The translations under genes were made by a program, and so were the position numbers. This document shows, piece after piece, positions 1-36,504 of a stretch of 40,739 nucleotides of DNA (position 1 is the first letter of the stretch; each line of letters opens with the position of its first letter). Source of the stretch: a virus; the IMG/VR virus record IMGVR_UViG_3300005563_000019, positions 1 to 40,739 of that record. One strand, given 5' to 3'. The notes under the pieces were generated by a model. The model did no database searches and was not told where the DNA came from. It saw only the letters and a program-made list of their open reading frames with translations.

Positions 1-70
1 CCTGCGCCGTCCAACTTCGCCGCTCCCCCGGCTCCGTCTGCCGGGGCTGGTTTCGCGCAGGTCGGCGCGA
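1..70. repeat. Terminal direct repeat, left copy (circle joint)
   Basis: Bases 1-70 are identical to bases 40670-40739, the last 70 bases of the window. The repeat lies inside a gene whose frame is continuous across the joint. It is therefore most simply the overlap left when a circular or circularly permuted genome was assembled, and not a biological terminal repeat. Confidence 0.95.
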
Positions 71-10163: not shown

Positions 10164-11203
10164 TATGCTGTCCCTTCGCCTTCGCTTTGCTTCGGCGGAA
10201 CTGCATGACCGTCAGCGATGCGCGCTCCAAGTGCGCGCCCCGAGAGAGATGCGAGAATAGCCCGCCCGATCTGCTCGGGGATGATCGGTGGGTTCAGGTT
10301 TCCGAGGGCGTGGATTCGCTCCACCCGCTCGGCAACCCCTGAAGCCACTCGACCCACGTCGGGTTCAGGCTCCCAAGTATGCCGTTCCTGCCGTGCGATT
10401 GCAGTCCCGATCGGCGCGATGCAGTCGGTGTCGGCCACAGAGCCGCCTCGCTCAATGGGATGCCTCGCCCGTGCGCCAAGCGCAGCGCGTGGCCTTCTTC
10501 CGACCGCCGGCCGCTCCGGAAGTCCCTCGCTGTCGGTGTGGGCCAAAGCGACCGGTTGACCGCGCGTCCGAGCTCGTTCCCGCTCGGGCCGTTGCTCTTG
10601 CCGTCCGGGCTGGCGCCGTGCAGCGTCGGCCAGAGTTGCGACGATCCAGACGCGATCACGGATGTGGGGTGCGTCAAAGGCGGCAGCCGATAGGCAATGC
10701 CACTCCGCATCGTACCCGAGCGCGGCCAGGTCTCCGAGAACTCGTCCGAAGTCTGCTCCCCCGTTGATGTTAAGCAGGTTTGAGCTGTTCTCCAGCAACA
10801 GGCCGAGGGGTCGAAGCTCGCCAGCCAGGCGGACGATTTCGCTCCATAGTCCAGAGCGTGGATCGTCCATGCCAAGTCCCGTGCCCGCTGGGCTGTTGCC
10901 CTGGCAGGGCCATCCGGCAACGATCCAGTCGGGAACAATTCCGGCTGCTCGCAGGCTGGCTCCGGTAAGGGCTCGAACGTCTTCGAAGATGGGGACATGG
11001 GGCCAGTGCTTGCGGAGGATGCGGCGGCAGAACGGCGTGATCTCGCAGAAGGCGGCGGTCTCGAAGCCGCCCGTCCGCTCCAGGCCCAGGCTGTAGGCCC
11101 CGATGCCGCTGAACAGGTCCAGCAGGCGAAGCGGGGCCTCCAGTGCAGAACTGGCCTCTATGCAGTTCCGTGGAGCCGCAGGCGTAACGGAGGGATAACC
11201 CAT
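10163..11203 (-). CDS. DNA (cytosine-5) methyltransferase
   Basis: It transfers methyl from AdoMet to carbon 5 of cytosine. Motif I LDLFSGIGAYSLGLE lies near the start. Motif IV is GWPCQGNS with the catalytic Cys, motif VI is LLLENSSNLL (ENS where ENV is usual), motif VIII HIRDRVWIVA, and motif X ALGNLNPPIIPEQIG near the end. A variable target-recognition region lies between VIII and X. ATG at 11203 has GAGG six bases before it; a GTG at 11215 would overlap the upstream stop but has no spaced ribosome site. No restriction enzyme is nearby, so it is an orphan enzyme, probably for escape from host restriction. Its target sequence cannot be read from here. Confidence 0.93.
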   Translation of the reverse strand: MGYPSVTPAAPRNCIEASSALEAPLRLLDLFSGIGAYSLGLERTGGFETAAFCEITPFCRRILRKHWPHVPIFEDVRALTGASLRAAGIVPDWIVAGWPCQGNSPAGTGLGMDDPRSGLWSEIVRLAGELRPLGLLLENSSNLLNINGGADFGRVLGDLAALGYDAEWHCLSAAAFDAPHIRDRVWIVATLADAARRQPGRQEQRPERERARTRGQPVALAHTDSEGLPERPAVGRRPRAALGARARHPIERGGSVADTDCIAPIGTAIARQERHTWEPEPDVGRVASGVAERVERIHALGNLNPPIIPEQIGRAILASLSGRALGARIADGHAVPPKQSEGEGTA

Positions 11204-11211
11204 TACTTCCC

Positions 11212-11442
11212 TCACCCTCCTGCAACGGGGGCATTAACACCCGGGTCCCTGGGTTCGGAGAGATATTCCCGGATGCTGACATCGAGCCTTTCCCCGGCCG
11301 CCAGCAGGTGTCGGAAACCGGATGCTCTGATGATGACGGCGTCGATATCGCCTCGGCCGCCCATCACCTCTAGAGCCGCGATGGCGGCAACGGCCTGCTC
11401 GGCCCAAGCAATCATTCTCGCTTCAAGGAATGACGTGCTCAC
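11212..11442 (-). CDS. Hypothetical protein, early operon (76 aa)
   Basis: It has a helical N-terminal half (ARMIAWAEQAVAAIAALEVM) and then a short beta/helix segment. There is an ATGA overlap with the NinB gene on one side and contact with the methyltransferase on the other. Not recognised. Confidence 0.6.
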   Translation of the reverse strand: MSTSFLEARMIAWAEQAVAAIAALEVMGGRGDIDAVIIRASGFRHLLAAGERLDVSIREYLSEPRDPGVNAPVAGG

Positions 11443-11861
11443 CTCACCCTCTCCAGTCCGCGCTCATTGGCGCTCTGGGTGGCTTCGGAGAAGGTGACGG
11501 AATGCTCTGCGCCCCAAGCGAGGATGATCTCGATGAGGTCCGAGCATTCCTCAGTGGACAGGTCCGACGATGACGATCCGAGATCCACAACGCCCTGGCC
11601 GTCGAGGCTGGGAACCGGATCGCTCGCCCGGTTCAGCGCATCCATGAAAAGCAGTTTCCACTTGGCCGCCGTCAGCTTGCGCCCGTGCCAGGTCATCTGC
11701 TGGGCGATGTCGGTAAGTGCCGCCCAGAGCTTGTCGTTCTGCGGGAGACTTCTCCGCGGCCCCTTGAACTCGAGCCGCGTTCCCTTGGGGGCCTTGGCGA
11801 CCCACGCCTGAGCGATAGCGCGGGTCGTGGGCTTTTCGAGGATCAGGACGGCTCGGGACAT
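11439..11861 (-). CDS. ninB: NinB-family recombination protein
   Basis: The 140-residue product matches the NinB (lambda Orf) plan: a short N-terminal strand and helix, then the signature GTRLEFKGPRRSLPQNDKLWAALTDIA, conserved WHGRKLTAAKWK, and a C-terminal helix. Lambda NinB/Orf binds single-stranded DNA and can replace RecFOR in loading recombinase. It lies one base from the RecT-like gene, forming a recombination pair. Family match is strong; activity is inferred from the family. Confidence 0.88.
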   Translation of the reverse strand: MSRAVLILEKPTTRAIAQAWVAKAPKGTRLEFKGPRRSLPQNDKLWAALTDIAQQMTWHGRKLTAAKWKLLFMDALNRASDPVPSLDGQGVVDLGSSSSDLSTEECSDLIEIILAWGAEHSVTFSEATQSANERGLERVR

Positions 11862-11862
11862 G

Positions 11863-12702
11863 TCAGGCCGCCACCGCTGGGCCGACGGCGCCCTTGAAGG
11901 CTTCCGTCATCGCCTCCTCGGCTTCGTCCAACTGCGCTTCGCTGGCGATCTCCTCAGCACGCAACATCACCTGATTGCGAATGCTGTCGAGCCAGGACAT
12001 GGGACATTGAGAGGTGTGCTTCTCGAATGCCTTGTCCCACTCGTACAGCTCCTCGGGGGTCGTGCAGCCGTTGATCGCGTCGCGGATTTCCTTGTCGAGC
12101 CCGATATCCTTGGCGCGAGCGCTGCTGAGGCGCTTCATGCGACCGTCCGCGAGTTGCGGTTGGATCGGGTCGGCGGCGCCCTGATTGGGCGTGATGTTGC
12201 GGGGCTCCTCGGGAGCCGTCGCGGCTGGTCCGAAGTCCTGCACCTCCTCCGGCACGTACATCCCGCTGGTGGCCATCGGGAACACCGTGCGGACCCCTTC
12301 GGAGACGACGCGGGCGCGCAACATCTGGCGCGGGTACTTCTTCCACATCGGGTTGTTGATGCCGGCCTTCACGGCGCGGGGCATCGTCCAGTCGATCCGG
12401 GCCGAACCGCCGGCCGGATGACTGAACGTGGCGTCGGCCTTCTCGTCGGACAGCGCGTGCCACTCGACCTTGCCGCCGGCGCTGAGAAAGTCGCGCAGCA
12501 TGGCGTCGGCCTTCTTGGAGGGGCGACCGCTGATGATATGATAGTCCTGGGCGGCGGTGGCCGGATGGCGCCCCTCGGCCTGGGCCACCAGACAGAGAGC
12601 GAGGGCCTGCTCCGGGTTCTGCACCCCGAATAGCTTCGACCCGGCGATGGCGCGCGCCATGCGCTCCATGTCGTTGACTTGGTACTGGACGACGGCGTTC
12701 AT
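11863..12702 (-). CDS. RecT-like single-strand annealing protein
   Basis: The N-terminal MERMARAIAGSKLFG and ALALCLVAQAEGRHP are followed by DYHIISGRPSKKADAML and NPMWKKYPRQMLRARV. These are typical of the RecT-type phage annealing proteins, which coat single strands and pair homologous DNA. The 279-residue length is usual for the family, and the C-terminal third is acidic and variable. No partner exonuclease (RecE or lambda Exo type) is recognised nearby. It would act with the adjacent NinB protein. The start overlaps the upstream stop as TGATG. Confidence 0.85.
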   Translation of the reverse strand: MNAVVQYQVNDMERMARAIAGSKLFGVQNPEQALALCLVAQAEGRHPATAAQDYHIISGRPSKKADAMLRDFLSAGGKVEWHALSDEKADATFSHPAGGSARIDWTMPRAVKAGINNPMWKKYPRQMLRARVVSEGVRTVFPMATSGMYVPEEVQDFGPAATAPEEPRNITPNQGAADPIQPQLADGRMKRLSSARAKDIGLDKEIRDAINGCTTPEELYEWDKAFEKHTSQCPMSWLDSIRNQVMLRAEEIASEAQLDEAEEAMTEAFKGAVGPAVAA

Positions 12703-13416: not shown

Positions 13417-13953
13417 CTAAGCCGCCCTCTCATCACGCTTCGCCGAGCCGAAAGCATCCATCCCAGCGACTCCGCTGGTCATGGGCCCGCCAGCGACCAT
13501 GACGGCGCTGACGGCCCAGCCGCGCTTGCAGGTCGAAAGCCACTGCTCATAGGTGGCCGTATCGTTGGCGAATGCGCTGGCGTTGTTATCGGCTAGCCAG
13601 CGCGCCAACTCTTCAGGCGTCGCGAAGGCTGGCGAAATCGGCGTGCCTTCGCTGGTGTCTTCGTACATCATCAGATGCGTGGCGACTTCCTCAGGCCATT
13701 CCGGCATGTAGTCGTCTGGAGATGGGCGCGGGCCAGCCCAATCCGTGTAGCGTGCTATCGTCAGCGCGTTGCCATCTCGGGCCTTCCATCCGCCAGCCCA
13801 ATCCTCTTGTAGGCCCTTTCCCCATTGCTCCCGGGCGAAATCCCACTCAGCGGCGCGAGTGGCATAGGACCCCTTGCAAAGCGGGATGAAATTCCCGTCC
13901 TCATTGCGAGGATGCTCCCACGCCTTGGGAACCATTCTGACTTCTCGACCCAT
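13417..13953 (-). CDS. Conserved phage protein with SEGTPISP motif
   Basis: ATG at 13953 overlaps the upstream stop as TGATG and has AAGGA about eight bases before it. A GTG one codon earlier is an alternative. The 178-residue product includes the landmarks DYMPEWPEEVATHLMMYE, TSEGTPISPAFATPEELARW and LADNNASAFANDTATYEQWL. I know this pattern as a widespread conserved hypothetical family of phages and bacteria. No catalytic triad or metal site is evident. Confidence 0.75.
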   Translation of the reverse strand: MGREVRMVPKAWEHPRNEDGNFIPLCKGSYATRAAEWDFAREQWGKGLQEDWAGGWKARDGNALTIARYTDWAGPRPSPDDYMPEWPEEVATHLMMYEDTSEGTPISPAFATPEELARWLADNNASAFANDTATYEQWLSTCKRGWAVSAVMVAGGPMTSGVAGMDAFGSAKRDERAA

Positions 13954-14138
13954 CACGCAGCGTCCTTCTTCTCTTGCTTGCCCGAGCCGAAAGCCCTGGC
14001 GATCTGCTGGTTGATCTGATCGGTGAGCGCCCGTGTTCCGCGGCGTTGGATCAGGTCTGTGGCTTGGGCCTGCTGTTCAGGCGTGGGTCCGCCGTTGCGG
14101 AAGGCGGTGTGGGCGAGGGCTTCGAAGGAGCGGGGCAT
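13953..14138 (-). CDS. First gene of the leftward early operon (61 aa)
   Basis: This is the first gene after the leftward promoter. The ATG at 14138 has GGAG eight bases upstream and lies about 17 bases after the predicted transcript start. The short, basic, helical product (PEQQAQATDLIQRRGTRALTD) has a Lys-rich end. It could be an early regulator or inhibitor of a host protein, but nothing in the sequence proves that. Confidence 0.6.
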   Translation of the reverse strand: MPRSFEALAHTAFRNGGPTPEQQAQATDLIQRRGTRALTDQINQQIARAFGSGKQEKKDAA

Positions 14139-14161
14139 TTACGTCTCCGTTTGTGATCCCG

Positions 14162-14189
14162 ACAATACGCCCCGACGCGTATGTGTCAA
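14162..14189 (-). promoter_or_regulatory. Leftward early promoter
   Basis: Reading leftward, TTGACA (14189-14184) is followed by a 16-base spacer and TATTGT (14167-14162). The -35 box is a perfect sigma70-type box. The predicted start is near 14155, just before the first gene of the leftward operon. Confidence 0.75.
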
Positions 14190-14214
14190 CGTCGTATTTG
14201 CGGATTGACGTATT
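14165..14214. promoter_or_regulatory. Operator-like CGTAT repeat cluster between divergent promoters
   Basis: The pentamer CGTAT occurs at 14178, 14193 and 14209, and its complement ATACG at 14165, so copies are 13-16 bases apart. The copies overlap or flank both promoters' boxes. The first two form the inverted repeat ATACG-N8-CGTAT. The same pentamers surround the promoter at 19555. They are candidate sites for the Cro-like protein coded at 14241 or for the ribbon-helix-helix protein at 19591. Confidence 0.55.
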
Positions 14215-14233
14215 TTTTCTGAGCGCGCATATT
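14205..14233 (+). promoter_or_regulatory. Rightward promoter for a leaderless transcript
   Basis: TTGACG (14205-14210), 17-base spacer, CATATT (14228-14233), then seven bases to the ATG at 14241. No ribosome site precedes that ATG, so transcription would start at or next to the start codon. The promoter at 19555 has exactly the same geometry. Confidence 0.65.
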
Positions 14234-14240
14234 CGCTCGC

Positions 14241-14429
14241 ATGACAGCCGATGATGTTCGCAAACTGCTACGGGAACGAGCCAACGGCAACCAGGCCGCC
14301 TGGGCTCGGGAACAGGGTATCTCAGCGCAATACGTCTGTGACGTGCTCACCGGGCGTCGCGAGCCCGGCGAAGCAATCTTGAAGGCTCTCAAGGTCGAGC
14401 GCCGCGTCACCTACGTGCGGGCCGCATGA
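14241..14429 (+). CDS. Cro-like HTH transcription regulator
   Basis: In the 62-residue product the helix-turn-helix is clear: NQAAWAREQGISAQYVCDVL, then TGRREPGEAILKALKVERRVTY. This is the compact Cro/phage-antirepressor-like form in which the protein is little more than the DNA-binding domain. It faces the leftward operon across a region rich in CGTAT repeats, the classical place for a Cro-type switch. It is probably translated from a leaderless mRNA. No CI-like partner with a peptidase domain is found, so lysogeny is not supported. Confidence 0.82.
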   Translation: MTADDVRKLLRERANGNQAAWAREQGISAQYVCDVLTGRREPGEAILKALKVERRVTYVRAA

Positions 14430-14596
14430 TCGCCCACCGCACCACCCAGACCCCCGAACGCGCCATCCGCGAGAGCCGACTCGGCGCGACCAAGCCCCCA
14501 TCCAGCTACCAGCTCGACAAGCTTGCGATCGGACGCCGCAGAGCCGCCCTTGCTGGCCGCTCCAAGCGTGCTGACGAGCTGCTGAGGAAGTTCTGA
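14426..14596 (+). CDS. Small basic protein between regulator and methyltransferase
   Basis: It overlaps the regulator stop as ATGA and the methyltransferase start as TGATG. The 56 residues are strongly basic, with RAIRESRLGATKPPSSYQLD and a C-terminal RRRAALAGRSKRADELL. It could bind nucleic acid. No family recognised; double coupling supports translation. Confidence 0.6.
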   Translation: MIAHRTTQTPERAIRESRLGATKPPSSYQLDKLAIGRRRAALAGRSKRADELLRKF

Positions 14597-15288
14597 TGCG
14601 CGTGGAGCACATCGGCGACGCGACGCTGTACCTGGGCGACTGCCGGGACGTGCTGCCCACGCTGGGCAAGGTGGACGCGGTTGTGACCGATCCGCCGTAT
14701 GGGATTAATATCGGCTCGTCTGGGCGTATCGGCTCCTCTAAGATAGTCGAAGTTCGCGAATATGGCAAGTTCTCGTGGGACCAAAGCGCCCCGACCGATG
14801 AACTTATTAAGCAAATCCGGTGCGCCGCGCGCTGGTCTATTATCTTCGGAGGCAACTTCTACACGCTTCCGCCGACCTCGTGCTGGCTGGTATGGGATAA
14901 GCTGAACACTGGCGACTTCGCCGACTGCGAATTGGCTTGGACCAACCTCCCGAAAGCCGTCCGACGCCTCCGCTATCTCTGGAATGGCTGTATGCGCGCC
15001 AACGGCGAGGTGCGCGGCGATCACCCGACACAGAAGCCCATCGGGGTCATGGCGTGGGTGCTGCAGCAACTTCCGCCGGATTGTCGGACTGTCCTCGACC
15101 CCTTCATGGGGAGCGGGACGACCGGCGTGGCGTGCGTCAAGGCGGGCCTGACCTTCACCGGCATCGAGCGTGAGGAACGCTACTTCGAAGCCGCCTGCCG
15201 CCGCATCGAGGAAGCCCATCGTCAGCCCCGGCTATTCGCTGAGCCGGTGGCCAATATCGTCCAGCCGTCCATGTTCGGTGAACCCTGA
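14596..15288 (+). CDS. DNA adenine-N6 / cytosine-N4 methyltransferase
   Basis: The beta-class arrangement is visible: TDPPYGINIG (catalytic DPPY, residues 32-35) comes before HPTQKPIG (143-150) and the AdoMet site LDPFMGSGTTGVA (167-179). The domain is N6_N4_Mtase (PF01555). The enzyme would methylate adenine N6 or cytosine N4. At 230 residues it is compact, with little room for a separate target domain. No cognate nuclease is adjacent, so it is an orphan like the cytosine-5 enzyme on the other strand. Roles could be anti-restriction or marking of the replication origin. Confidence 0.92.
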   Translation: MRVEHIGDATLYLGDCRDVLPTLGKVDAVVTDPPYGINIGSSGRIGSSKIVEVREYGKFSWDQSAPTDELIKQIRCAARWSIIFGGNFYTLPPTSCWLVWDKLNTGDFADCELAWTNLPKAVRRLRYLWNGCMRANGEVRGDHPTQKPIGVMAWVLQQLPPDCRTVLDPFMGSGTTGVACVKAGLTFTGIEREERYFEAACRRIEEAHRQPRLFAEPVANIVQPSMFGEP

Positions 15289-15455
15289 TGCACCCCAGCC
15301 GCGGCAATCCCAAACTCACCCCCGAGCAGGTGGCCGAGCTGCGGATGTTCCGGCGCTTCAGCACGCTGACCCTGAAGGAACTTGGGAAGCGCTACGGTGT
15401 CAGCCACGTGGCTATCTGGAAGATCGCGAACGGCCACACATGGAAGAACGCATGA
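15288..15455 (+). CDS. Stand-alone HTH protein resembling an HNH-endonuclease tail
   Basis: The start overlaps the methyltransferase stop as TGATG. The 55 residues contain KLTPEQVAELR, LTLKELGKRYGVSHVAIWKI and TWKN. They line up with the C-terminal DNA-binding tail of the HNH protein at 8384-8791 (KLTAAQVVEIR, YGV, WWK). It is therefore either a remnant of a homing endonuclease or a small dedicated DNA-binding protein. Confidence 0.65.
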   Translation: MHPSRGNPKLTPEQVAELRMFRRFSTLTLKELGKRYGVSHVAIWKIANGHTWKNA

Positions 15456-15607
15456 CCGGCCGCCCAGCCTTCCCTGATCCTGAGACGCAGGCCCGTCGCC
15501 AGCTGAGGGAAATGTGCCGTTTCCTATATGGCAGCTTCGAGGAGCGCTTCCGCCACAACTCGGAAGACCTGGCGAAGTGGAAGAAACTGATAACGAGGAC
15601 GAAATGA
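15452..15607 (+). CDS. Small hypothetical protein (51 aa)
   Basis: It is joined by ATGA overlaps on both sides. The product TGRPAFPDPETQARRQLREM and its following charged helix show no membrane segment or known motif. A start at 15440 would add four residues. Confidence 0.55.
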   Translation: MTGRPAFPDPETQARRQLREMCRFLYGSFEERFRHNSEDLAKWKKLITRTK

Positions 15608-15888
15608 GCGAACCGATTGGACCGGGCGATCTGGTGGAGTGCATCTCTGTCCGAGACGACAGCGTCTCCGGCTATACGGTCGGTTCTACCTATATCGTGG
15701 ATGAAGTTGGTGTTCTGAGAGGAATTCCCTGGTTAAATTGTCTGAGAATGCCTCGCCCGAGCGAATGCGAGAGTAGCTCGGCGCCCGGATGGCTTGCGGA
15801 TGCCTTCCGCCCCATCTCCCGCCGCTCCGACTTCGAGAAAGTCCTTGAGCAGCTGAAAGCTCCGCTCCCTGAGCTTCAGGATGCCTAA
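15604..15888 (+). CDS. Small beta-rich protein (94 aa)
   Basis: ATG at 15604 overlaps the upstream stop as ATGA. The first half is beta-like (GPGDLVECISVRDD, YTVGSTYIVDEVGV) and resembles an SH3-like or KOW-like barrel. The tail is helical. It is the last gene before a promoter and hairpin element. Similar short phage proteins are annotated only as hypothetical. Confidence 0.6.
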   Translation: MSEPIGPGDLVECISVRDDSVSGYTVGSTYIVDEVGVLRGIPWLNCLRMPRPSECESSSAPGWLADAFRPISRRSDFEKVLEQLKAPLPELQDA

Positions 15889-15892
15889 GCCA

Positions 15893-15921
15893 TTGACGAA
15901 AAGCCCAGCTTGACCCTCAAT
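15893..15921 (+). promoter_or_regulatory. Promoter candidate upstream of hairpin A
   Basis: TTGACG (15893-15898), 17-base spacer, CTCAAT (15916-15921). The -10 box is weak (three of six). The candidate is supported by its likeness to the element at 16716: same -35, same spacer length and a matching G-rich hairpin just downstream. Confidence 0.45.
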
Positions 15922-15929
15922 GGCAGGGC

Positions 15930-15968
15930 GGGCGGGGAGCATCCATCCTAACAAACGCTCTCCCGCCC
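15930..15968 (+). promoter_or_regulatory. Leader hairpin A
   Basis: GGGCGGGGAGC (15930-15940) pairs with GCTC and CCCGCCC (15957-15968), giving 11 base pairs with one bulged T at 15961 and a 16-base loop. No T-run follows, so it is not a standard terminator. It would lie at the very 5' end of an RNA from the promoter at 15893. Hairpin B at 16750 has the same plan, including the single bulge on the 3' arm. Confidence 0.5.
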
Positions 15969-16003
15969 TAAGCGAACAAGCCGCCTTTTCAACGGAGGAA
16001 AGC

Positions 16004-16198
16004 TTGCTGCCTGATCCCCTTATAGCTCTAAATTATCCGCATGGTAAACGCCTGGACATGGGCGATCCTATGGACGTTCACACCGCAGCTGTGGAAAGCC
16101 TCCTAGAATGCGTGGATGCTTTGGTCGACTTGATCGGCAATGACCGCACCATGCGCCTGCTGAGACAGTGTGACGATGCGCTGTGGGTGGCGAATTGA
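16004..16198 (+). CDS. Small hypothetical protein, probable TTG start
   Basis: The frame is open further upstream, but GGAGGAA at 15994-16000 lies at ideal distance before TTG 16004. Later ATGs at 16058 and 16070 lack a comparable site. The product is about 64 residues, with a helical core AAVESLLECVDALVDLIGN. This helix resembles small phage proteins of unknown role. It is the first gene after hairpin A. Confidence 0.5.
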   Translation: MLPDPLIALNYPHGKRLDMGDPMDVHTAAVESLLECVDALVDLIGNDRTMRLLRQCDDALWVAN

Positions 16199-16407
16199 GC
16201 GTCTGGCGGCGGGTTGACCGCGTCGACCCTCCTCGCGAAAAGCTGATCGGCCTGGCGTCGGGCAAATGCGGCGCGATGTTTGCTATCGGCGTCGTGCTCG
16301 ACAGTGGGCGTGTGAGCGCCCAAGGCTGGGCATCATTTCCAGCGACTCAAAGGTTGGCGTTCTGGGACTTGTGGCGCCCTTTTGAATGTCCCGATCCAGA
16401 CGAGTGA
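16183..16407 (+). CDS. Small hypothetical protein (74 aa)
   Basis: It can start at GTG 16183 or at TTG 16195, the latter overlapping the upstream stop as TTGA; neither has a strong ribosome site. The product has KLIGLASGKCGAMFAIGVVL, a small strand-rich core, and an acidic C-terminus. Not recognised. Confidence 0.5.
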   Translation: MGGELSVWRRVDRVDPPREKLIGLASGKCGAMFAIGVVLDSGRVSAQGWASFPATQRLAFWDLWRPFECPDPDE

Positions 16408-16411
16408 CCTG

Positions 16412-16735
16412 ATGAGCACCCCGCTTCGTAAGTTCGAGAAGGTCATGCTCTACCGGATGCGTGACGGCCACTTCACGCCGCGCACCATCAACCGCGCTCT
16501 GATAAATGCGACCCAGCCGCTGCATCGCTCGATCATGAATATCGAACGCACCCTCTCGAACATGGAGGGAAAAGGCTACGTGGAGCATGTCTCTCGCAAC
16601 ACATGGATTCCAACCGATCTCGGGTGGGGCTGGCTCAGCCGTCATGGTGGCGTTGAGGGGCAGGCAGGCGATCCACCCAGGGACATGCTGATGCCGGCTG
16701 CCCATCGCGGGACAATTGACGTTTCAACGGCTTAG
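16412..16735 (+). CDS. Winged-helix DNA-binding protein
   Basis: ATG at 16412 lies five bases after the upstream stop. The 107-residue product has STPLRKFEKVMLYRM, a helix pair (HRSIMNIERTLSNMEGKGYV) and a beta wing with WIPTDLGWGWL, a winged-helix plan of the kind that reads DNA. The final 25 residues contain the promoter at 16716 in their DNA. It could regulate replication genes downstream. Confidence 0.6.
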   Translation: MSTPLRKFEKVMLYRMRDGHFTPRTINRALINATQPLHRSIMNIERTLSNMEGKGYVEHVSRNTWIPTDLGWGWLSRHGGVEGQAGDPPRDMLMPAAHRGTIDVSTA

Positions 16736-16744
16736 GTAGATAAA
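16716..16744 (+). promoter_or_regulatory. Promoter candidate for the replication/packaging operon
   Basis: TTGACG (16716-16721), 17-base spacer, GATAAA (16739-16744, four of six). It lies at the end of the winged-helix gene and points at the initiator gene. The transcript would begin near 16752 at hairpin B. Confidence 0.6.
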
Positions 16745-16749
16745 AGGCG

Positions 16750-16779
16750 GGCGGGAGGTGTTGGATGCACCTACCCGCC
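16750..16779 (+). promoter_or_regulatory. Leader hairpin B
   Basis: GGCGGGAGGTG (16750-16760) pairs with CACCT and CCCGCC (16768-16779), 11 base pairs with one bulged A at 16773 and a seven-base loop. A second weak hairpin can form from AGGCC and GGCCT further on (16783-16805). No T-run follows. The 107 bases from 16745 to the initiator start hold no gene. Confidence 0.5.
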
Positions 16780-16851
16780 TTCAGGCCCTAACAGGGGGGA
16801 GGCCTTCGCCCGGATGCATAAGATACCTGCCCAGCGTGACGGTTTCAAGCC

Positions 16852-17379
16852 GTGAGCAACCAGGCGATCACGCTTGCCCTACAAACGCAGGGGGTTTCGT
16901 CCGCCGAGAAATTCCTTTTGGTGGTTATCTCGAATTACGCCAACCAGGACATGGAGGCGTGGCCCTCGCACGCCAGATTGGCGAGAGATACCTGCATGTC
17001 CCGGCGGACCATCATCCGGCTGGTGGCCAGCTTGGCGGAAAAGAAGCTGATATCCGTCCGTGGGCGGAAGTCTCGCGGGCTCCAGACGACCAGCCTCTAC
17101 ACCCTGACTTTCCGTGGTGACATGATGGCACAGCGTGGTGACATTGACGCCCTCGACGTGGTGACATCCACGACCAAACCGGGTGACACCATGGCACACG
17201 AACCTAAGAAAGAACCTATAATAGAACCTCCATACGCGCGCGAGGCTCGTGCTGCTGAGATAGCAGCCTCGCGCGCTTTAGGACCGATAGCCCTGGTGAA
17301 AATCCCGAGGCCCAAACCACCGGCGGAAACCCCCGCCCAGATGGCCAGCAGGCTCCGACAGATGGCGATGCGAGCATGA
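16852..17379 (+). CDS. Replication initiator-like protein (lambda O type layout)
   Basis: It starts at GTG 16852; no strong ribosome site is seen. The 175-residue product has an N-terminal winged helix of the phage replication-protein type (EAWPSHARLARDTCMSRRTI, then IRLVASLAEKKLISVRG), typical of HTH_36/O-type initiators. A flexible linker (about 88-125) is coded by repeated DNA that looks like an origin, as in lambda O. The C-terminus is short and helical. O-type proteins bind origin iterons and recruit the host helicase. No helicase loader is recognised, although the next gene (17393) occupies the place of lambda P. Confidence 0.7.
   Translation: MSNQAITLALQTQGVSSAEKFLLVVISNYANQDMEAWPSHARLARDTCMSRRTIIRLVASLAEKKLISVRGRKSRGLQTTSLYTLTFRGDMMAQRGDIDALDVVTSTTKPGDTMAHEPKKEPIIEPPYAREARAAEIAASRALGPIALVKIPRPKPPAETPAQMASRLRQMAMRA
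17113..17276. other. Putative replication origin: four iterons, A-rich segment and dyad
   Basis: CGTGGTGACAT occurs exactly at 17113, 17134 and 17157, with a variant CGGGTGACAC at 17180. Spacings are 21, 23 and 23 bases, about two helix turns. Copies 1 and 4 are also both followed by ATGGCACA. A purine/AT-rich stretch (17204-17228) with two AGAACCT copies comes next. Then an 11-base inverted repeat pairs 17236-17246 with 17266-17276. All lie inside the initiator gene. This order (iterons, then AT-rich segment, in the initiator's linker) is that of lambda ori. Confidence 0.65.
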
Positions 17380-17392
17380 GGAGGAGACAAGC

Positions 17393-17698
17393 ATGACCAT
17401 GCTGGAGAGACTCGCGAGGGCGATTGATCCGCTAGCCTTCTATCGCAACGACGACGGGGGTACGACGAGAACCTCCCTCGATCTTCAGCGCATCAAGTAC
17501 AACGAGCGCAGAGCGGACGCACGTGTAGCGGCTCGTGAGGTCCTCCAAGCCCTCCGCAACCCGGATGAGGGGATGCTGGAGGCGGCTGTTCCCGCAATCC
17601 TTGGCGGGGGTGTGTTCTTCAACGAGCGTCGGGTTTTTATTGAACGCTTCCAAGCAGCAATCGACCACATCCTCAATGAAGGAGCGGCGACGGAATGA
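17393..17698 (+). CDS. Hypothetical protein following the initiator (101 aa)
   Basis: A strong GAGGAGGA lies before ATG 17393. The product has a helical core (AREVLQALRNPDEGMLEAAV) and ends FQAAIDHILNEG. A similar ending, GIDHILNGG, is found in the protein at 29908-30150, so both belong to a loose phage family. Position after an O-type initiator is where a helicase loader would be, but no such signature is seen. Confidence 0.65.
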   Translation: MTMLERLARAIDPLAFYRNDDGGTTRTSLDLQRIKYNERRADARVAAREVLQALRNPDEGMLEAAVPAILGGGVFFNERRVFIERFQAAIDHILNEGAATE

Positions 17699-17946
17699 TC
17701 ACCTCCCACAACGGCTGGAGACGCGGAATGGCAACCCCTGACGAAAGCAAGTATGCACGCGCCCTTCGCCTTCAGCGGGAAAAAGCCCTTAAGGAGCGCC
17801 GCTTCAGAGATAGCCGTTTGAAAATGGCTGAGGAGCGAGAGCGAGACCCTGTCGGCTTTCTGATGCGGACAGCTAGGCTTTCGTTCGCGCAGGCGGTAGA
17901 AATGCTCGCCGATGAACAGGCGCAGAAAACCCGTGACGACGGCTAA
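17695..17946 (+). CDS. Charged helical hypothetical protein (83 aa)
   Basis: ATGA overlap with the upstream gene. The product is nearly all charged helix (ARALRLQREKALKERRFRD, LKMAEERERDPVGF), probably a coiled coil, with an end that overlaps the small terminase candidate by 35 bases. An in-frame ATG at 17728 is an alternative start. Function unknown. Confidence 0.6.
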   Translation: MITSHNGWRRGMATPDESKYARALRLQREKALKERRFRDSRLKMAEERERDPVGFLMRTARLSFAQAVEMLADEQAQKTRDDG

Positions 17947-18238
17947 AGTAGCAAAATCTAGCAACCGCGGCTCCAAGCCCGGAGAGCACCGCGGCGGTCG
18001 GCAGAAGAACACGCCTAACAAGTCTACAAAGGACGTGAAGGCGCTAGCCTCGCAGTACGGTCCCGACGCCATAGCTGAACTCGGCCGCCTCGCCACGCAG
18101 GCTGAGAGTGAAGCGGCCAAAGTCGCGGCCATCAAGGAAATCCTCGATCGCGCCTATGGGAGATCGCCAGTGACAGCTGAGCATTCACATACCTTCAAGG
18201 GCATTGTTGGGTTCAGATGGCAGCCTCCCACCGATTGA
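17912..18238 (+). CDS. Putative small terminase subunit
   Basis: It directly precedes and overlaps the large terminase gene by 22 bases. The 108-residue product has a basic N-terminus with GSKPGEHRGGRQKNTPNKST, then a helical part (ALASQYGPDAIAELGRLATQ; AAIKEILDRAYGRSPV). The GGRQKGTPNK-type opening is a hallmark of a group of phage small-terminase or DNA-binding proteins. Small terminases bind the packaging site and load the large subunit. A GTG at 17933 is an alternative start. Confidence 0.72.
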   Translation: MNRRRKPVTTAKVAKSSNRGSKPGEHRGGRQKNTPNKSTKDVKALASQYGPDAIAELGRLATQAESEAAKVAAIKEILDRAYGRSPVTAEHSHTFKGIVGFRWQPPTD

Positions 18239-19551
18239 TCGATCAATGGGTCGACAGTGACTACGCCCCTCGCAGGGCTTTCCTGCCCTTCCATAGCCGA
18301 ACACAGCGGTTTTCTGCCGGGGTAGCGCACCGCCGAGCAGGCAAGACCGTGGCGGCAATCAATGAGCTGGTGATGCGGGCGATCGAGAACGATCTTCCCA
18401 ACCCACGCTGCGCCTACGTCGCCCCGCTGTTCAACCAGGCCAAGGACGTCGCCTGGCTCTACCTCAAGCACTACGCCCGGCCGATCCTGGCCAAGCCTCC
18501 CAACGAGAGTGAGCTTTATGTCGAGCTTATCAACGGGGCCAGGATACGACTATACGGCGCTGACAATCCGGATCGGCTCCGAGGAATATATCTCGATGAT
18601 GTGGTACTGGACGAGTACGCGGACATGCATCCGGCTGTTTGGCCCGAAGTCATCCGCCCCCTGCTCGCCGATCGACGTGGCCGAGCAACTTTTATCGGTA
18701 CTCCAAAAGGCAGAAACGGCTTCTTCGACATCTACAGCCGAGCCCTAGACGATCCCGACTGGTTCACGTTCATGCTCAAGGCCAGCGAGACGAAGCTGAT
18801 CCCCGAGGACGAGCAGCGGGCCATGACCAAGGACATGACGCCCGAGCAGATCGCACAGGAGCTCGAATGCTCCTTCGAGGCGGCGATCCTGGGCGCCTAC
18901 TTCGGCAAGGAGATGGCCGAAGCCGAGCGCCAGGGCCAAATCGCCGACGTCCGCCATGACGATACGCTGCCCGTCCACACTTCATGGGATCTCGGCATAG
19001 GCGACAGCACCGCCATCTGGTTCTGGCAGATCACGCCCTCCGAAATCCACGTCATCGACCATTACGAGATGAACGGCCAGAGCGTCGAGCACTACGCCCG
19101 CGTGCTGCAATCCAAGCCCTACGTCTACGCTCACGACTGGGTTCCGCACGACGCCAAGGTCAGGGAGCTGGGCACGGGCCGCACCCGGATCGAGACCATG
19201 ATCAGCCAGGGCCTCAAGCCCCGCCTGGTGCCCGACCACAAGGTCATGGACGGCATCAACGCGCTGCGAGTGCTGTTCCCCCGCATCTGGTGGAACAAGG
19301 CCTGTGCGACCGGCCTGGAGGCGCTGCGGCAGTACCGGGCCGACTACGACGACAAGACGCGAGCCTTCAAGGACACGCCCAAGCACGACTGGACCAGCCA
19401 CACCGCCGACGCAGCCCGCTACATGGCGATGGCCTATCGCGAGCTGAAGCCTGATCCCAAGCCCGAGGAGAAGCCCGTCCTCGGCATCATGGACACCACC
19501 TGGGACCAGGCACTGAAGCGGTATGGGCCGCGGAGGGGTGGACGCGTCTAA
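18217..19551 (+). CDS. terL: Terminase large subunit
   Basis: This is the packaging motor: an ATPase that drives DNA into the procapsid plus a nuclease that cuts concatemers. Walker A is HRRAGKT (38-44), Walker B VVLDEYAD (129-136), and FIGTPKG (159-165) is the coupling motif. The nuclease domain starts at WDLGIGDS (257-264, first metal Asp), continues with YAHDWVPHDAK, and ends with HTADAARYMA (395-404, last Asp). At 444 residues it is of normal length for P22/T7-superfamily enzymes. The gene follows the small subunit and precedes a regulatory insertion before the portal. Confidence 0.97.
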   Translation: MAASHRLIDQWVDSDYAPRRAFLPFHSRTQRFSAGVAHRRAGKTVAAINELVMRAIENDLPNPRCAYVAPLFNQAKDVAWLYLKHYARPILAKPPNESELYVELINGARIRLYGADNPDRLRGIYLDDVVLDEYADMHPAVWPEVIRPLLADRRGRATFIGTPKGRNGFFDIYSRALDDPDWFTFMLKASETKLIPEDEQRAMTKDMTPEQIAQELECSFEAAILGAYFGKEMAEAERQGQIADVRHDDTLPVHTSWDLGIGDSTAIWFWQITPSEIHVIDHYEMNGQSVEHYARVLQSKPYVYAHDWVPHDAKVRELGTGRTRIETMISQGLKPRLVPDHKVMDGINALRVLFPRIWWNKACATGLEALRQYRADYDDKTRAFKDTPKHDWTSHTADAARYMAMAYRELKPDPKPEEKPVLGIMDTTWDQALKRYGPRRGGRV

Positions 19552-27725: not shown

Positions 27726-29123
27726 ATGCTGCACGTTTGCTGCGTCAGAACCGGTCGTAAGTACTCCCGCGATTACGTCGCGATCCTCCACGACATGGTC
27801 AGCCGCAACCTCAGCACGCCACACCATTTCTGGTGTCTGACCGACGATCCCGAGTCCATCCATCCTGAGATCGGGATCATCCCCGCCGACCCCGAGCTGA
27901 AAGGCTGGTGGCAGAAGGTCAACCTCTTCAACCCGCACATGCCCTGGAAGCCGGGCGAGGACCGGGTGCTCTACTTCGACCTCGACGTGGCCATTGTCGG
28001 CCGGTTGGAGGAGATGGCAGAGACGCCCGGCATCATCCGCGACTGGAACAACCCGGAATATAACAGCTCCGTTATGTGCTGGGATGCGGGCGACCACCTC
28101 AACGCCTGGCTGAAGTTCAACCCGATCGCCGTTCCGATCCGGATGCACGGAGACCAGAACTGGCTCACCGAGCTGGGGGGCTGGGAGACCTTCCCGCGCG
28201 ACTGGTGCCTGTCCTTCCGCGCCCACGCCCAGGACTGGCCCCCGAACGAGGCCAAGGTGGTGGTGTTCCACGGCGAGCCCAAGCCGCACGAGGTTCAGGG
28301 CTGGGTCAAGGACGTCTGGAAGATCGGCGGCCATACCCAGTTCCTGGCCGGCAAGGGCATGAACGTCTCTTATGCCAAGGTGCTGGAAAACGTCCGCATC
28401 AACTCGGCCCGGGAAGACGTGCAATGGTTCGTAGGGGATCAGCCGCACAAGGAGACGCTGGTCATCGTTGGAGGAGCCCCGAGCCTGAAGGAGCAGATTC
28501 GGGCGATCCGTGACCAGCGGCTCAGGGGTTCCAAAATCCTCGCCCTGAACAACGCCTGCGCCTTCCTGAACGCCAACAACATCGTGCCCGACTATCTGAT
28601 GATCTGCGACGCGCGGGAAGAGAACGTGGTGTTCACCCGCGCCGAAGCCAAGCGCTACATCCTCGCCAGCCAGTGCGACCCGAGCCTTTTCGACGCCCTG
28701 AAGGGCAAGGACGTGCACATGCCCCATTTGTGGGTGTGCGACGAGATGCGGGACATTCTGGCCCCCTACGACGAGACGCAACCCATCTGCCTGATCGGGG
28801 GCGGCTCGACGGTGGGCCTGCGGGCGATCAGCCTCGGCATCATCTCGGGCTATCGGACCATCCATCTATACGGCATGGACAGCTGCTTTTCGCAGTCGCA
28901 GCATCACGCCTACGAGCAGACCCTGAACGACGCGGACCAGGCGCTTGAGGTGTACCTGCCGGCGCTGAAGAAGCACTACGTGGTGAGCCCCTGGATGGCG
29001 CGTCAGGCGGCAGAGTTCAGGGATATCGTCTGGCAGCACGCCAAGGACAGTGGGACACGCATCATCGCCCACGGCAAGGGACTGATACCGGACATGGCGA
29101 GGCATCTGGCGCAAAATGGCTGA
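27726..29123 (+). CDS. Glycosyltransferase (GT8-like) fused to DUF115 domain
   Basis: Two domains are visible in 465 residues. The first (about 1-205) looks like a retaining GT8-type glycosyltransferase: WWQKVNLFNP, the metal/sugar-nucleotide motif YFDLDVAIVG with DLD at 85-87, and FHGEPKPHE (181-189), the usual second metal His region. The second domain (about 243-440) is DUF115/MptE-like: VIVGGAPSLKEQ, LNNACAFLNANNIVPDYL, then IGGGSTVGLRAISLGI, HLYGMD and HHAYEQ. DUF115 occurs in the Maf proteins that help glycosylate flagellin. The protein therefore probably adds sugar to a protein or surface polymer. It stands in the virion gene cluster, two genes before an FkbM methyltransferase. Target unknown. 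Confidence 0.8.
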   Translation: MLHVCCVRTGRKYSRDYVAILHDMVSRNLSTPHHFWCLTDDPESIHPEIGIIPADPELKGWWQKVNLFNPHMPWKPGEDRVLYFDLDVAIVGRLEEMAETPGIIRDWNNPEYNSSVMCWDAGDHLNAWLKFNPIAVPIRMHGDQNWLTELGGWETFPRDWCLSFRAHAQDWPPNEAKVVVFHGEPKPHEVQGWVKDVWKIGGHTQFLAGKGMNVSYAKVLENVRINSAREDVQWFVGDQPHKETLVIVGGAPSLKEQIRAIRDQRLRGSKILALNNACAFLNANNIVPDYLMICDAREENVVFTRAEAKRYILASQCDPSLFDALKGKDVHMPHLWVCDEMRDILAPYDETQPICLIGGGSTVGLRAISLGIISGYRTIHLYGMDSCFSQSQHHAYEQTLNDADQALEVYLPALKKHYVVSPWMARQAAEFRDIVWQHAKDSGTRIIAHGKGLIPDMARHLAQNG

Positions 29124-29298
29124 GATGAAGGAACACCCCCCGCTGGCGATATGCGAGGCTAACGCGCGGGCGAAGCGGACGACCGCGCAGTTTCGGCGCG
29201 AAGAAGCCGCAAAGGCGCTTCGCCACGCCGAGGAATTGGACGAAGAGGCGGCTATTTGGGAGCGTGCGGCGCAAACCCTGAGGGCCGCAGATGCCTGA
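29116..29298 (+). CDS. Small coiled-coil protein between glycosyltransferase and methyltransferase
   Basis: It overlaps both neighbours by eight bases. The 60-residue helical, charged product (AKRTTAQFRREEAAKALRHA) is predicted to be one long coil. It could link or regulate the two enzymes; no family match. Confidence 0.55.
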   Translation: MAEMKEHPPLAICEANARAKRTTAQFRREEAAKALRHAEELDEEAAIWERAAQTLRAADA

Positions 29299-29911
29299 TC
29301 TGATCCAAGACGCCCGCGGCATCTGGTGGCCCGCCGACGACGAATGGGGCCGGGAGATCATCCCGCTTGAGATCGGCCCGGCGATGAGCTGGCTACACGC
29401 CCACAACAAGCGATGGGGGACCATCATCCAGGCCGGGGGGAACGTGGGGCTCTACCCAGAAGCGCTAGGGCATACGTTCGGCCACGTGATGACATTCGAA
29501 CCGGACCCCGTGAACTACGAGTGCATACGCCGCAATGTTGGAGCGCAGAACGTCATCTGGTGGCAAGGCGCGCTTGGCGAACGCATGGGGGCTTGTGGCA
29601 TGGTCGAAGTGATGACGCACAACTGCGGCGCACACCGGATCGAGCCAGACGAAGATGGCGGTATCCCACTCTTTACGATCGATGGAATGGAGATGACCCC
29701 AGACGTCATCTGGCTGGACGTCGAAGGCTCCGAACTCCCGGCCCTGAAGGGCGCGGCTGAAACCCTGAAGCGCTGCAAGCCCATGGTCATCGTGGAACTG
29801 AAGGGCCTGGGCGAGGCCTATGGCTACACGAACGATGACGTTCACGCCTATCTCGAAGACTTCGGCTACAAGCTGGTGTCAGAGCACGGCAACGACAGGA
29901 TGTTCGCATGA
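29291..29911 (+). CDS. FkbM-family methyltransferase
   Basis: The Rossmann AdoMet site is IIQAGGNVGLYP (about 45-56; DxGxNxG in most relatives, QAGGNVG here), followed by the acidic ribose-binding end of strand 2, MTFEPDPVNY (67-76), and RRNVGAQNV. WLDVEGSELPALKGA (141-155) and KPMVIVELKG (163-172) are the FkbM hallmarks. FkbM enzymes O-methylate sugars and polyketides and often cap glycans. The gene overlaps the next start as ATGA. With the GT-DUF115 gene it suggests a methylated sugar decoration. Confidence 0.85.
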   Translation: MPDLIQDARGIWWPADDEWGREIIPLEIGPAMSWLHAHNKRWGTIIQAGGNVGLYPEALGHTFGHVMTFEPDPVNYECIRRNVGAQNVIWWQGALGERMGACGMVEVMTHNCGAHRIEPDEDGGIPLFTIDGMEMTPDVIWLDVEGSELPALKGAAETLKRCKPMVIVELKGLGEAYGYTNDDVHAYLEDFGYKLVSEHGNDRMFA

Positions 29912-31611: not shown

Positions 31612-31860
31612 ATGGCTCACACTCAGGACGCAGTCATCTATGATCCGCTCACCGGCAACGTCGCCATGATCGTCATTCCGGATGACGACACGCAGTTAGG
31701 CGATCCGGCTTTCAACCCAAAGGGCTTGACGCAACTTCGGGTCCCCAGTTCCTCGGACCCCGTTTCCAACGCCGCCAAAATCAATTCAAAAATAAAGCTT
31801 CCTGTTACCACCGCTGCGTCAGTCGGGGTAGCGCTCGGAAACGTGAGCGTTAGCCAGTGA
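31612..31860 (+). CDS. Small structural-region protein (82 aa)
   Basis: The product has strand-like motifs (DAVIYDPLTGNVAMIVIPDD) and a Ser/Val-rich end. It precedes the second glycine-rich gene, whose GTG overlaps its stop as GTGA. Not recognised. Confidence 0.6.
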   Translation: MAHTQDAVIYDPLTGNVAMIVIPDDDTQLGDPAFNPKGLTQLRVPSSSDPVSNAAKINSKIKLPVTTAASVGVALGNVSVSQ

Positions 31861-32804
31861 CGACGGTCATCATCGTCTCTGGCGCGACAACTATCGTCCC
31901 ATCCGATTGGAATAACTCCATAAATTCCATTCATGGAATAGGGGCCGGGGGCAATGGCGCAGCTGGTTCCGGTACGAACACGGGCGGCGGCGGCGGCGGC
32001 GGCGGTGAGTACCGAAAGGCCGCCAACGTAACCCTGACGGCGGGATCAACCGTTGACATCAACATTCCAGCCGGCGGGGCCGGTTCGGGTGTCTCTGGGA
32101 CCTACATCAAGGATGGGGCCGGCGGCGGCGGCACAATCCAGATGGAAGCCAAGAACGGAGCCAATGCAGTAGGAAAAACCGGAGGGACCGGAGGGACCGG
32201 AGGGACCGGAGCGGCGGCTAATTTTGCCGGGGGCCAAGGGGGAACGAACTCTGTCGTCAGCACCATTGGCGGCTCCGGCGGTGGCGGATCGGCTGGACCG
32301 ACAGGCGCAGGTAAGGCCGGAGGCAGCAACGCGACTTCGACGGCTGGCGCTTCCGGGGGCGGGTCAAACGGAGGTTCCTCTACAGTAGGAACCGATCCTG
32401 GCTCGGGCAATGGATCGACTGGCGGCGCGGGCACGAGTGGAGCCGGCGGCGGGGCTGGGTCGAGTGCAGGAGGCCCCTCCGGCAACGCGACGGCGGGCAC
32501 GATTGGCGGCGGCGGAGGGGCGTCCGGCAACAGCAGTACGAACGGGTCGGGTATTGGCGGCTCTGGCGGCGTCGATACAGCGTTTGATGCCTCGCACGGC
32601 GCATCGGGCGGCGGCGGAGGTTCGGGTCACTCTGCCGGCAATGCCTCCGGCGCGGGTGGCGCTGGAGGAGCGTATGGGGGCGGTGGCGGTGGCTCGGGCT
32701 CGACCGGGACTGGCACATCTGGGGCCGGCGGCACAGGCGGCCAGGGAATCTTGGTGCTCATCTACACTCCAGCGGACGCCTTGACGGCGCAGATATTGAT
32801 GTGA
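31857..32804 (+). CDS. Glycine-rich adhesin-like protein (copy 2)
   Basis: GTG 31857. In the 315-residue product an N-terminal lead-in (TTIVPSDWNNSINSIHGIGA) matches that of the copy at 23945 (AGWNNANNAIYVLAAG). A glycine-rich body of about 230 residues and the end GGQGILVLIYTPAD follow. The DNA contains seven GGC triplets in a row (31983-32003) and a 9-base tandem repeat (32178-32213), both in frame. Such proteins serve as tips of phage fibres. It is most similar in plan to copy 1, so the pair may have arisen by duplication. Confidence 0.72.
   Translation: MTTVIIVSGATTIVPSDWNNSINSIHGIGAGGNGAAGSGTNTGGGGGGGGEYRKAANVTLTAGSTVDINIPAGGAGSGVSGTYIKDGAGGGGTIQMEAKNGANAVGKTGGTGGTGGTGAAANFAGGQGGTNSVVSTIGGSGGGGSAGPTGAGKAGGSNATSTAGASGGGSNGGSSTVGTDPGSGNGSTGGAGTSGAGGGAGSSAGGPSGNATAGTIGGGGGASGNSSTNGSGIGGSGGVDTAFDASHGASGGGGGSGHSAGNASGAGGAGGAYGGGGGGSGSTGTGTSGAGGTGGQGILVLIYTPADALTAQILM
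31983..32003 (+). repeat. (GGC)7 microsatellite within glycine-rich gene
   Basis: Seven GGC codons in a row followed by GGT give eight glycines. Triplet repeats of this type can change length without breaking the frame. Confidence 0.85.
32178..32213 (+). repeat. Nine-base tandem repeat within glycine-rich gene
   Basis: Three exact units of ACCGGAGGG and a fourth differing at one base, in frame, coding for Gly-Gly-Thr type triplets. Length change by slippage would keep the frame. Confidence 0.85.
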
Positions 32805-35822: not shown

Positions 35823-35986
35823 TGGGCAAGAGCGCTTGGGTTCCTCCTGAAATACCCAATTCACGATTTATCGAGCCTACGCGAGCGCGCGAAAAGGGAT
35901 TCTGGGAAGTTGTTGAAGCCCCCGTGTTCATGGTCGCGATTGGCGCTCTCGTATGTGCCCTGGCATGGATAGTGGGGGTTCGTTGA
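35822..35986 (+). CDS. Small tail-anchored membrane protein (54 aa)
   Basis: TGATG overlaps on both sides. A polar N-terminal half (SAWVPPEIPNSRFIEPT) is followed by one C-terminal span (APVFMVAIGALVCALAWIV). It is too short for recognition but fits the overlap chain. A membrane protein here, among tail genes, is unexpected. Confidence 0.55.
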   Translation: MGKSAWVPPEIPNSRFIEPTRAREKGFWEVVEAPVFMVAIGALVCALAWIVGVR

Positions 35987-36504
35987 TGCAAATCCTCTAT
36001 CCTCAATCGGCCGAAGATTCGGTGGTCATGGCCAAGTGGGCCGCTCACATGATCCCGCATATGAACGGCCAGCCCTTCGACGCGCCGGCCAGCATCGCGT
36101 TTCTGGACGATGCGGGAGAGGTCGGCGGCATGGTGGTCTATTCCAGCTACCAGCCGCAATATGGCAACATCCAGGTGTCGTTCGTCGTCGCCAATCCCAA
36201 GTGCCTCTCTAGGAATTTGCTTTCAGCTTTGCTACGCTATCCATTCACCCAGCTAGGGGTGCAACGTGTGACCGCCATCACACCGTCCGATGAGACGACC
36301 AGCGTTTGGCGGTTCCTTCAAGCCTTCGGATTCACCCGAGAGGGTCGCGTCCGTAGGGGACTAGGAACCGAGGGCGATGCGATCATCTGGGGCCTCCTGG
36401 CGAGCGAATGGCGAACCAACAAGTTCAACGTCGACCGGGAGCCGAAAAAGCGCCGCCGCCGTAAGCGCGGAACGCTGTCGCTGGAGTCGCACGCCCTCCA
36501 CTAG
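35986..36504 (+). CDS. GNAT-type acetyltransferase
   Basis: ATG 35986 overlaps the upstream stop as TGATG. The 172-residue product has central strands (ASIAFLDDAGEVGGMVVYSS, NIQVSFVVANPKCLSRNLL), then VQRVTAITPSDETTSVWRFL with QAFGFTREGRVRRG, which are motif A/B-like parts of RimJ/RimL-type GNAT enzymes. A basic tail (KKRRRRKRG) could touch nucleic acid. Podoviruses often carry such an enzyme beside tail genes; substrate unknown. Confidence 0.75.
   Translation: MQILYPQSAEDSVVMAKWAAHMIPHMNGQPFDAPASIAFLDDAGEVGGMVVYSSYQPQYGNIQVSFVVANPKCLSRNLLSALLRYPFTQLGVQRVTAITPSDETTSVWRFLQAFGFTREGRVRRGLGTEGDAIIWGLLASEWRTNKFNVDREPKKRRRRKRGTLSLESHALH

Follow-up and report, generated by a model that had tools for sequence, protein, structure and literature searches.

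Initiators of the lambda type are described as acting on sites placed inside their own genes. Dimers of the lambda O protein bind iterons located in gene O and melt the 40 bp of AT-rich DNA beside them, and the P protein brings DnaB (PMC5043065). Each lambda iteron is reported to be an imperfect inverted repeat of 19 bp to which O dimers bind (PMC5043065, PMC7466680). According to the account in PMC8022706, phages lambda, P22 and L encode distantly related O proteins, each with its own iterons located within the O or 18 gene.

Here, a locus of this type was analysed in a virus. The window, i.e., the whole stretch of DNA under study, comprises 40,739 nucleotides (IMG/VR record IMGVR_UViG_3300005563_000019) with a GC content of about 64%. 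The features discussed below are collected in Table 1.

Table 1. Elements of the initiator gene and the candidate origin, in coordinates of the window
Feature	Position	Strand	Basis
O-like replication initiator, 175 residues, GTG start	16852-17379	+	Pfam, PHROG, alignment, AlphaFold
Iteron 1, CGTGGTGACAT	17113-17123	+	exact match
Iteron 2, CGTGGTGACAT	17134-17144	+	exact match
Iteron 3, CGTGGTGACAT	17157-17167	+	exact match; reading frame differs from iterons 1 and 2
Iteron 4, degenerate, CCGGGTGACAC	17179-17189	+	direct-repeat family D2; register; GGTGACA core intact
AT-rich stretch, probable unwinding element; codes EPKKEPIIEPPY and neighbours	17200-17234	+	AT content; same place of the AT peak in 94 O-like genes
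Perfect 12-base dyad, 17-base loop; codes most of helix 127-142	17236-17276		inverted-repeat scan

Genomic context

The first and last 70 bases of the window (1-70 and 40670-40739) are identical, so the contig is probably a complete genome, either circularly assembled or terminally redundant. In the region 10166-12702, on the minus strand, the NinB gene adjoins a gene for a RecT/Bet-like annealing protein, with a DNA methyltransferase gene nearby; together they resemble the recombination set of lambda and lie on the other strand from the O-like gene. Glycosyltransferase, methyltransferase and acyltransferase-like ORFs were found among the structural genes (27726-29911 and 35953-36504).

A phage contig (L016) encodes a terminase 69% identical to that of the window. 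Upstream of the terminase gene, at the place taken by the O-like gene in the window, it carries a 99-residue ORF with a lone DnaA C-terminal DNA-binding domain (L016:1656-1955; PF08299, 3e-14), followed by an ORF without a family (L016:1969-2589). It appears that a swap of the initiator module has taken place between such phages.

The initiator gene and its product

The product of the ORF matched the Pfam family HTH_36 (E 4e-11) and the PHROG replication initiation families 1032 (4e-18), 270 and 391 ('O-like'), with the 'O-like' name given to four of the best eight PHROG rows. Its N-terminus aligned with the MSFQA... starts of relatives. These matches support the proposal of the sequence-only reading that the gene encodes an O-type initiator. 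In the AlphaFold model, based on 43 sequences, residues 1-86 formed a winged helix with high pLDDT, the linker was predicted to be disordered (pLDDT below 50 at residues 90-109) and two C-terminal helices followed, the last one modelled confidently. The N-terminal winged helix that characterises the O-like initiators of the PHROG 1032/270/391 group is present. The motif F..FW..YP occurred in 21 of 94 relatives and not in the window's protein; a motif found in so few of them does not define the O-like family.

Against solved structures, the single-protein search gave a best E of 0.68, the profile search gave weak winged-helix matches (best 5.5e-4) and the Foldseek search of the initiator model against PDB reached 1.2e-3. 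The best VIA-align match had a Z of 10.6 over 67 residues with an rmsd of 1.5, and winged helices of many functions were matched. A solved O protein was absent from the lists of structure matches obtained by sequence, profile, Foldseek PDB and VIA-align searches. In BFVD, an entry named 'Putative replication protein O' was ranked sixth. An assignment to the RepC initiators of repABC was rejected, with the RP-C domain scoring 20.8 bits, under the Pfam cut-off of 24.4.

The iteron array

The iterons code the linker, and most of the first C-terminal helix is coded by the dyad, with about 50 residues remaining C-terminal of the AT-rich stretch. Three exact copies of an 11-base repeat and one variant had been pointed out in the linker-coding part of the gene at a spacing of 21-23 bases; copies were located at 17113, 17134 and 17157 and the variant at 17179, which gives start-to-start distances of 21, 23 and 22 bases, and all the elements lie within the ORF as proposed. 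Iteron 4 shares eight of 11 bases with CGTGGTGACAT and was too divergent to be detected in a scan allowing two mismatches to that sequence. It was recovered through a direct-repeat family, D2, in which 17116-17132 pairs with 17182-17198 at 88%; its GGTGACA core starts at 17182. Iterons 1 and 2 are read in frame 0 of the gene and iteron 3 in frame 2, which indicates that the repeat is kept as DNA and not as a protein repeat.

In the whole 40.7-kb window, the array starting at 17113 was the sole site with at least three identical 9-mers at a spacing of 14-30 bases. In 300 first-order Markov genomes, exact triples of 10-mers or 11-mers at a spacing of 16-26 bases did not occur, and triples of 8-mers were found in one genome, as were triples of 9-mers. 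Significant dyad symmetry was not detected in the window's iterons (p 0.32-0.61 over the four copies), and single iterons varied in this respect, with copies 1 and 4 pairing at 7 of 10 positions. For comparison, 48 of 94 O-like arrays were symmetric at p ≤ 0.05.

The AT-rich stretch and the dyad

The 35 bases following the array are 66% AT, relative to a mean of 36% for the window. Two AGAACCT copies had been noted here; both are present (17211 and 17223), and a further GAACCT at 17200 extends them to three GAACCT units at a 12-base spacing. The AT-richest 30 bases of the stretch (70% AT) were equalled or exceeded by 25 of the 40,710 30-base windows, this one included, and higher AT peaks were located near 27000 and at 31777-31911. 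ATA accounts for five of the 11 isoleucine codons of the initiator gene, as compared with 13 of 274 in 12 other ORFs, and two of the five fall in the AT-rich stretch.

The dyad downstream had been described as having 11-base arms. Its presence was confirmed and its length corrected, as the arms (17236-17247 and 17265-17276) are perfect over 12 bases. It is the sole perfect 12-base inverted repeat with a loop of 3-25 bases in the window, and also the longest among the short-loop ones. A 12-base dyad occurred somewhere in 12% of 60 simulated genomes, so the dyad alone is less exceptional than the array. Single-stranded DNA of 17195-17290 folded more strongly than its shuffles (z of -4.0 and -3.8 for the two strands), largely because of the dyad itself.

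Among 92 other O-like loci, no counterpart of the dyad was found except for one 11-base dyad formed by iterons (L140). The longest perfect arms within 150 bases past the array were mostly 5-6 bases in 93 loci, similarly to the upstream control, with the window as an outlier. The dyad was accordingly rejected as a general part of such origins, the other loci being no better than the upstream control. It was also rejected as a terminator, being absent from the terminator-like sites of 13900-18300. The dyad may have arisen by accident from the coding of an alanine-rich helix, or it may be a protein site. A more specific role can be imagined, in which the locus would be a pared-down O-type origin, devoid of P and of the usual C-terminal part of the initiator, and, after opening of the AT-rich stretch, the dyad beside it would form a single-strand hairpin used as an assembly site for loading the host helicase, in place of a phage loader; such a role is considered distinctly unlikely.

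Arrays in other O-like genes

A set of O-like genes was assembled from phages (12 of 97 matching records) and viral contigs (80 loci kept of 142, alignment A2). Together with the window and L027, these gave 94 genes, from which a subset of 49 was drawn by retaining products of at least 150 residues and one member of each group more than 85% alike. L027 was the only one of 25 loci examined through terminase relatives in which an O-like ORF was found, and no array was detected there. A single-protein scan of the viral contigs returned 26 pattern stretches and no relatives.

Arrays, defined as at least three near-identical 10-mers at a spacing of 16-26 bases, were present in 34 of the 49 distinct O-like genes at nucleotides ~229-405 of the gene; in the remaining 15, the same detector found none. 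The array sequence differed by lineage, and the repeats were mostly set in cycling frames, which indicates that in these genes, too, the DNA is what is kept. These results bear on the possibility that the repeats of the window arose by chance or are a property of the protein, a disordered linker of repetitive sequence, and play no part as DNA. The linker is indeed predicted to be disordered, and copies 1 and 2 each translate as RGD in the frame of the gene. However, copy 3 lies in another frame, the frames cycle in relatives, and arrays appeared in none of 980 codon shuffles, nor in any of the 129 neighbouring ORFs with 150 or more codons from the same loci, just as simulated genomes yielded no 10-mer or 11-mer arrays. 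This explanation is therefore regarded as extremely improbable.

The AT content was surveyed in a different group of 94 O-like genes, composed of the 49 genes and the O-like loci of the GGTGACA scans described below, after the removal of near-copies and array-less genes; for the GGTGACA loci, the detector was relaxed (8-mers, seven matches). The AT excess over the gene mean amounted to +0.13 to +0.14 at 10-49 bases past the last core and did not exceed 0.034 in any other bin. In 71 of these 94 genes, relative to 8.6 expected, the AT-richest 30 bases began between -5 and 60 from the end of the array. An array followed by an AT-rich stretch is thus the rule for the O-like family, and the window conforms to it.

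The short relatives limited to the winged helix (87-119 residues) differed: when the gene and its surroundings up to 700 bases away were considered, one of 23 had an array, located upstream of the gene. These relatives, which include L041-L057, L113-L120 and others, are mostly without an array.

The existence of array-less relatives of this kind is compatible with the array being an operator, through which the protein limits its own transcription or acts solely as a regulator, with replication starting elsewhere. The N-terminal domain, a generic winged helix with a fold near that of many transcription regulators, would suit such a role as well. Nevertheless, dozens of O-like genes have a mid-gene array with AT-rich DNA behind it, a layout that fits an origin better, the PHROG matches are to replication initiation families, and a second such array is absent from the window. 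The operator explanation is thus judged unlikely.

Recurrence of the GGTGACA core

A scan blind to genes was performed in viral contigs with three GGTGACA cores at a spacing of 20-24 bases, the reversed pattern being used as a control. Of 120 viral loci among the matches listed, 71 had their array within an O-like ORF. The reversed control gave 69 loci in total, six of them inside O-like ORFs. In GTDB genome contigs, the GGTGACA pattern fell in O-like ORFs at five of 117 loci among the matches listed. The core was placed on the opposite strand in 13 of 72 O-like ORF matches among the matches listed.

Arrays with the GGTGACA core (loci L121-L240) recurred in O-like genes on distant branches. 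The tree of 94 winged-helix domains is biased, with many rows fetched by the GGTGACA pattern and many long branches; it placed the window, weakly supported, among genes whose iterons differ in sequence from its own, and the GGTGAC+ label required at least five changes on well-supported branches. Due to this bias of the set and the many long branches, no convergence is claimed, and the recurrence of the core may reflect either common descent or a favoured site. A text search covering part of the literature found no paper on GGTGACA phage iterons.

Replication partners

The sequence-only reading had also stated that no helicase, primase or polymerase is coded, and that the phage must load the host machinery. 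Six-frame family searches of the whole record did not find the P (PF06992), DnaB, DnaC/IstB, polymerase A or Toprim_2 families, and a PHROGs scan of the 50 predicted ORFs did not find a helicase loader. Two methyltransferases gave one weak match each, to a helicase and a primase family. The 101-residue ORF following the O-like gene had no match to a Pfam or PHROG family. The first part of the statement agrees with these searches, but 'must' is too strong: several early ORFs are without a family match, so the loading of host machinery is something we infer. The host helicase is probably used.

A survey of loaders was carried out on 30 chosen records, mostly long, of which L134, L142 and L016 were excluded as non-O-like. 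Among the 27 O-like records left, which may include fragments and in which loaders may be too diverse to be recognised by these families, DnaB_C was found in 13, IstB in one, P in none with this model, and none of the three in 13. The lack of P, DnaB_C and IstB is hence not unusual. DnaA boxes with at most one mismatch numbered 11 in the window, as compared with 17.3 expected, and none started between 16091 and 30781, which gives no suggestion of a DnaA-assisted origin.

The size of the protein and the missing partners could also be taken as signs that the array is a worn relic and that the phage now starts replication elsewhere, its short protein having no helicase-recruiting part. With 175 residues, the protein is near the short end of the range in the 94 genes (144-381 residues), the fourth iteron is degenerate, and a P or helicase gene was not found. 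Against this, three of the repeats are letter-perfect, the AT-rich DNA shows no decay, the AlphaFold model is confident for the last C-terminal helix, and the same lack of P, DnaB_C and IstB is seen in nearly half of the O-like records surveyed. A relic is considered very improbable.

A model of initiation

The O-like family of the protein, the survey of arrays, the blind scan and the AT peak following the arrays all favour the proposed interpretation of the locus as an origin. Points that weigh against it are the 15 of 49 O-like genes in which the detector found no array, the short winged-helix relatives, L041 included, that mostly have none, the low share of GTDB loci in O-like ORFs (five of 117 among the matches listed), the lack of significant symmetry in the iterons and the negative searches for P and helicase genes. 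By analogy with lambda, the segment 17113-17234 is very probably the replication origin of the phage, placed where its own initiator gene codes for the linker and opened by the 175-residue protein. Binding, opening and initiation would follow the course known for lambda and its relatives. With its N-terminal winged helix, the protein would bind in several copies to the four iterons, each with a GGTGACA core; as the iterons are about two helical turns apart, the sites would point to roughly the same side of the DNA. Once occupied, the array would strain the DNA, and the adjacent AT-rich stretch would open. The host replicative helicase would be loaded at the opened stretch by a loader of the host or by a so far unrecognised early protein of the phage, any naming of the protein that brings the helicase being speculative, and host enzymes would then copy the phage DNA.

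This reading of the window provides a specific and testable pair of origin and initiator for this phage. The survey suggests a rule according to which the origin is marked by an O-like gene with linker repeats at a spacing of 20-25 bases and an AT-rich stretch after them. With such a rule, the origins of many uncultured phages could be predicted from sequence. Pairs of winged helices and iterons could be collected as well, making it possible to study how DNA specificity changes in an initiator that has its site within its own gene.

Comparison with known systems

The closest winged helix found, with 47-49% identity, belongs to a viral contig (L041). Its protein differs from the window's in having 89 residues, no array was detected with it, and a helicase-like frame follows, as judged by eye. 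Short inverted GGCTCA/TGAGCC repeats and AGAACCTAT were also noticed by eye after the stop codon of this gene.

The O-like gene of the Pseudomonas phage vB_Pae_U7 (L004) shows 33.9% identity over residues 1-111 and a similar layout, with four GGGTAGTAGC repeats in the linker at spacings of 20, 22 and 23 bases in cycling frames, and EPIIEP coded after them. In contrast to the window, its iteron sequence is another one, the protein has 282 residues and a primase/helicase gene is located directly downstream.

The gene 18 origins of P22 and L likewise have their repeats in the coding region, and the L repeat, as given in PMC8022706, is 11 bp, the length of that in the window. In the same account, gene 12 of P22 encodes a helicase of the DnaB type, and L is expected to have it too on grounds of homology, whereas no DnaB_C was found in the window.

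With lambda ori, the window shares four initiator sites in the middle of the gene followed by about 40 bp of AT-rich DNA, and an initiator that is O-like by PHROG. The differences are that the window's iterons have no significant symmetry and another sequence than the lambda iterons as published, and that lambda has gene P beside O, whereas the window is without a P family. The description of the origin as lambda-like therefore applies in a broad sense and not in the strict sense of ori-lambda, the repeats being not clearly inverted and P not being found. The broad kind of intragenic-iteron origin is marked by at least three repeats at a spacing of about 20-25 bases in the linker and by an adjoining AT-rich stretch, and the window contains both. 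On the strength of these sequence features, the locus belongs to the broad kind already described for lambda, P22 and L.
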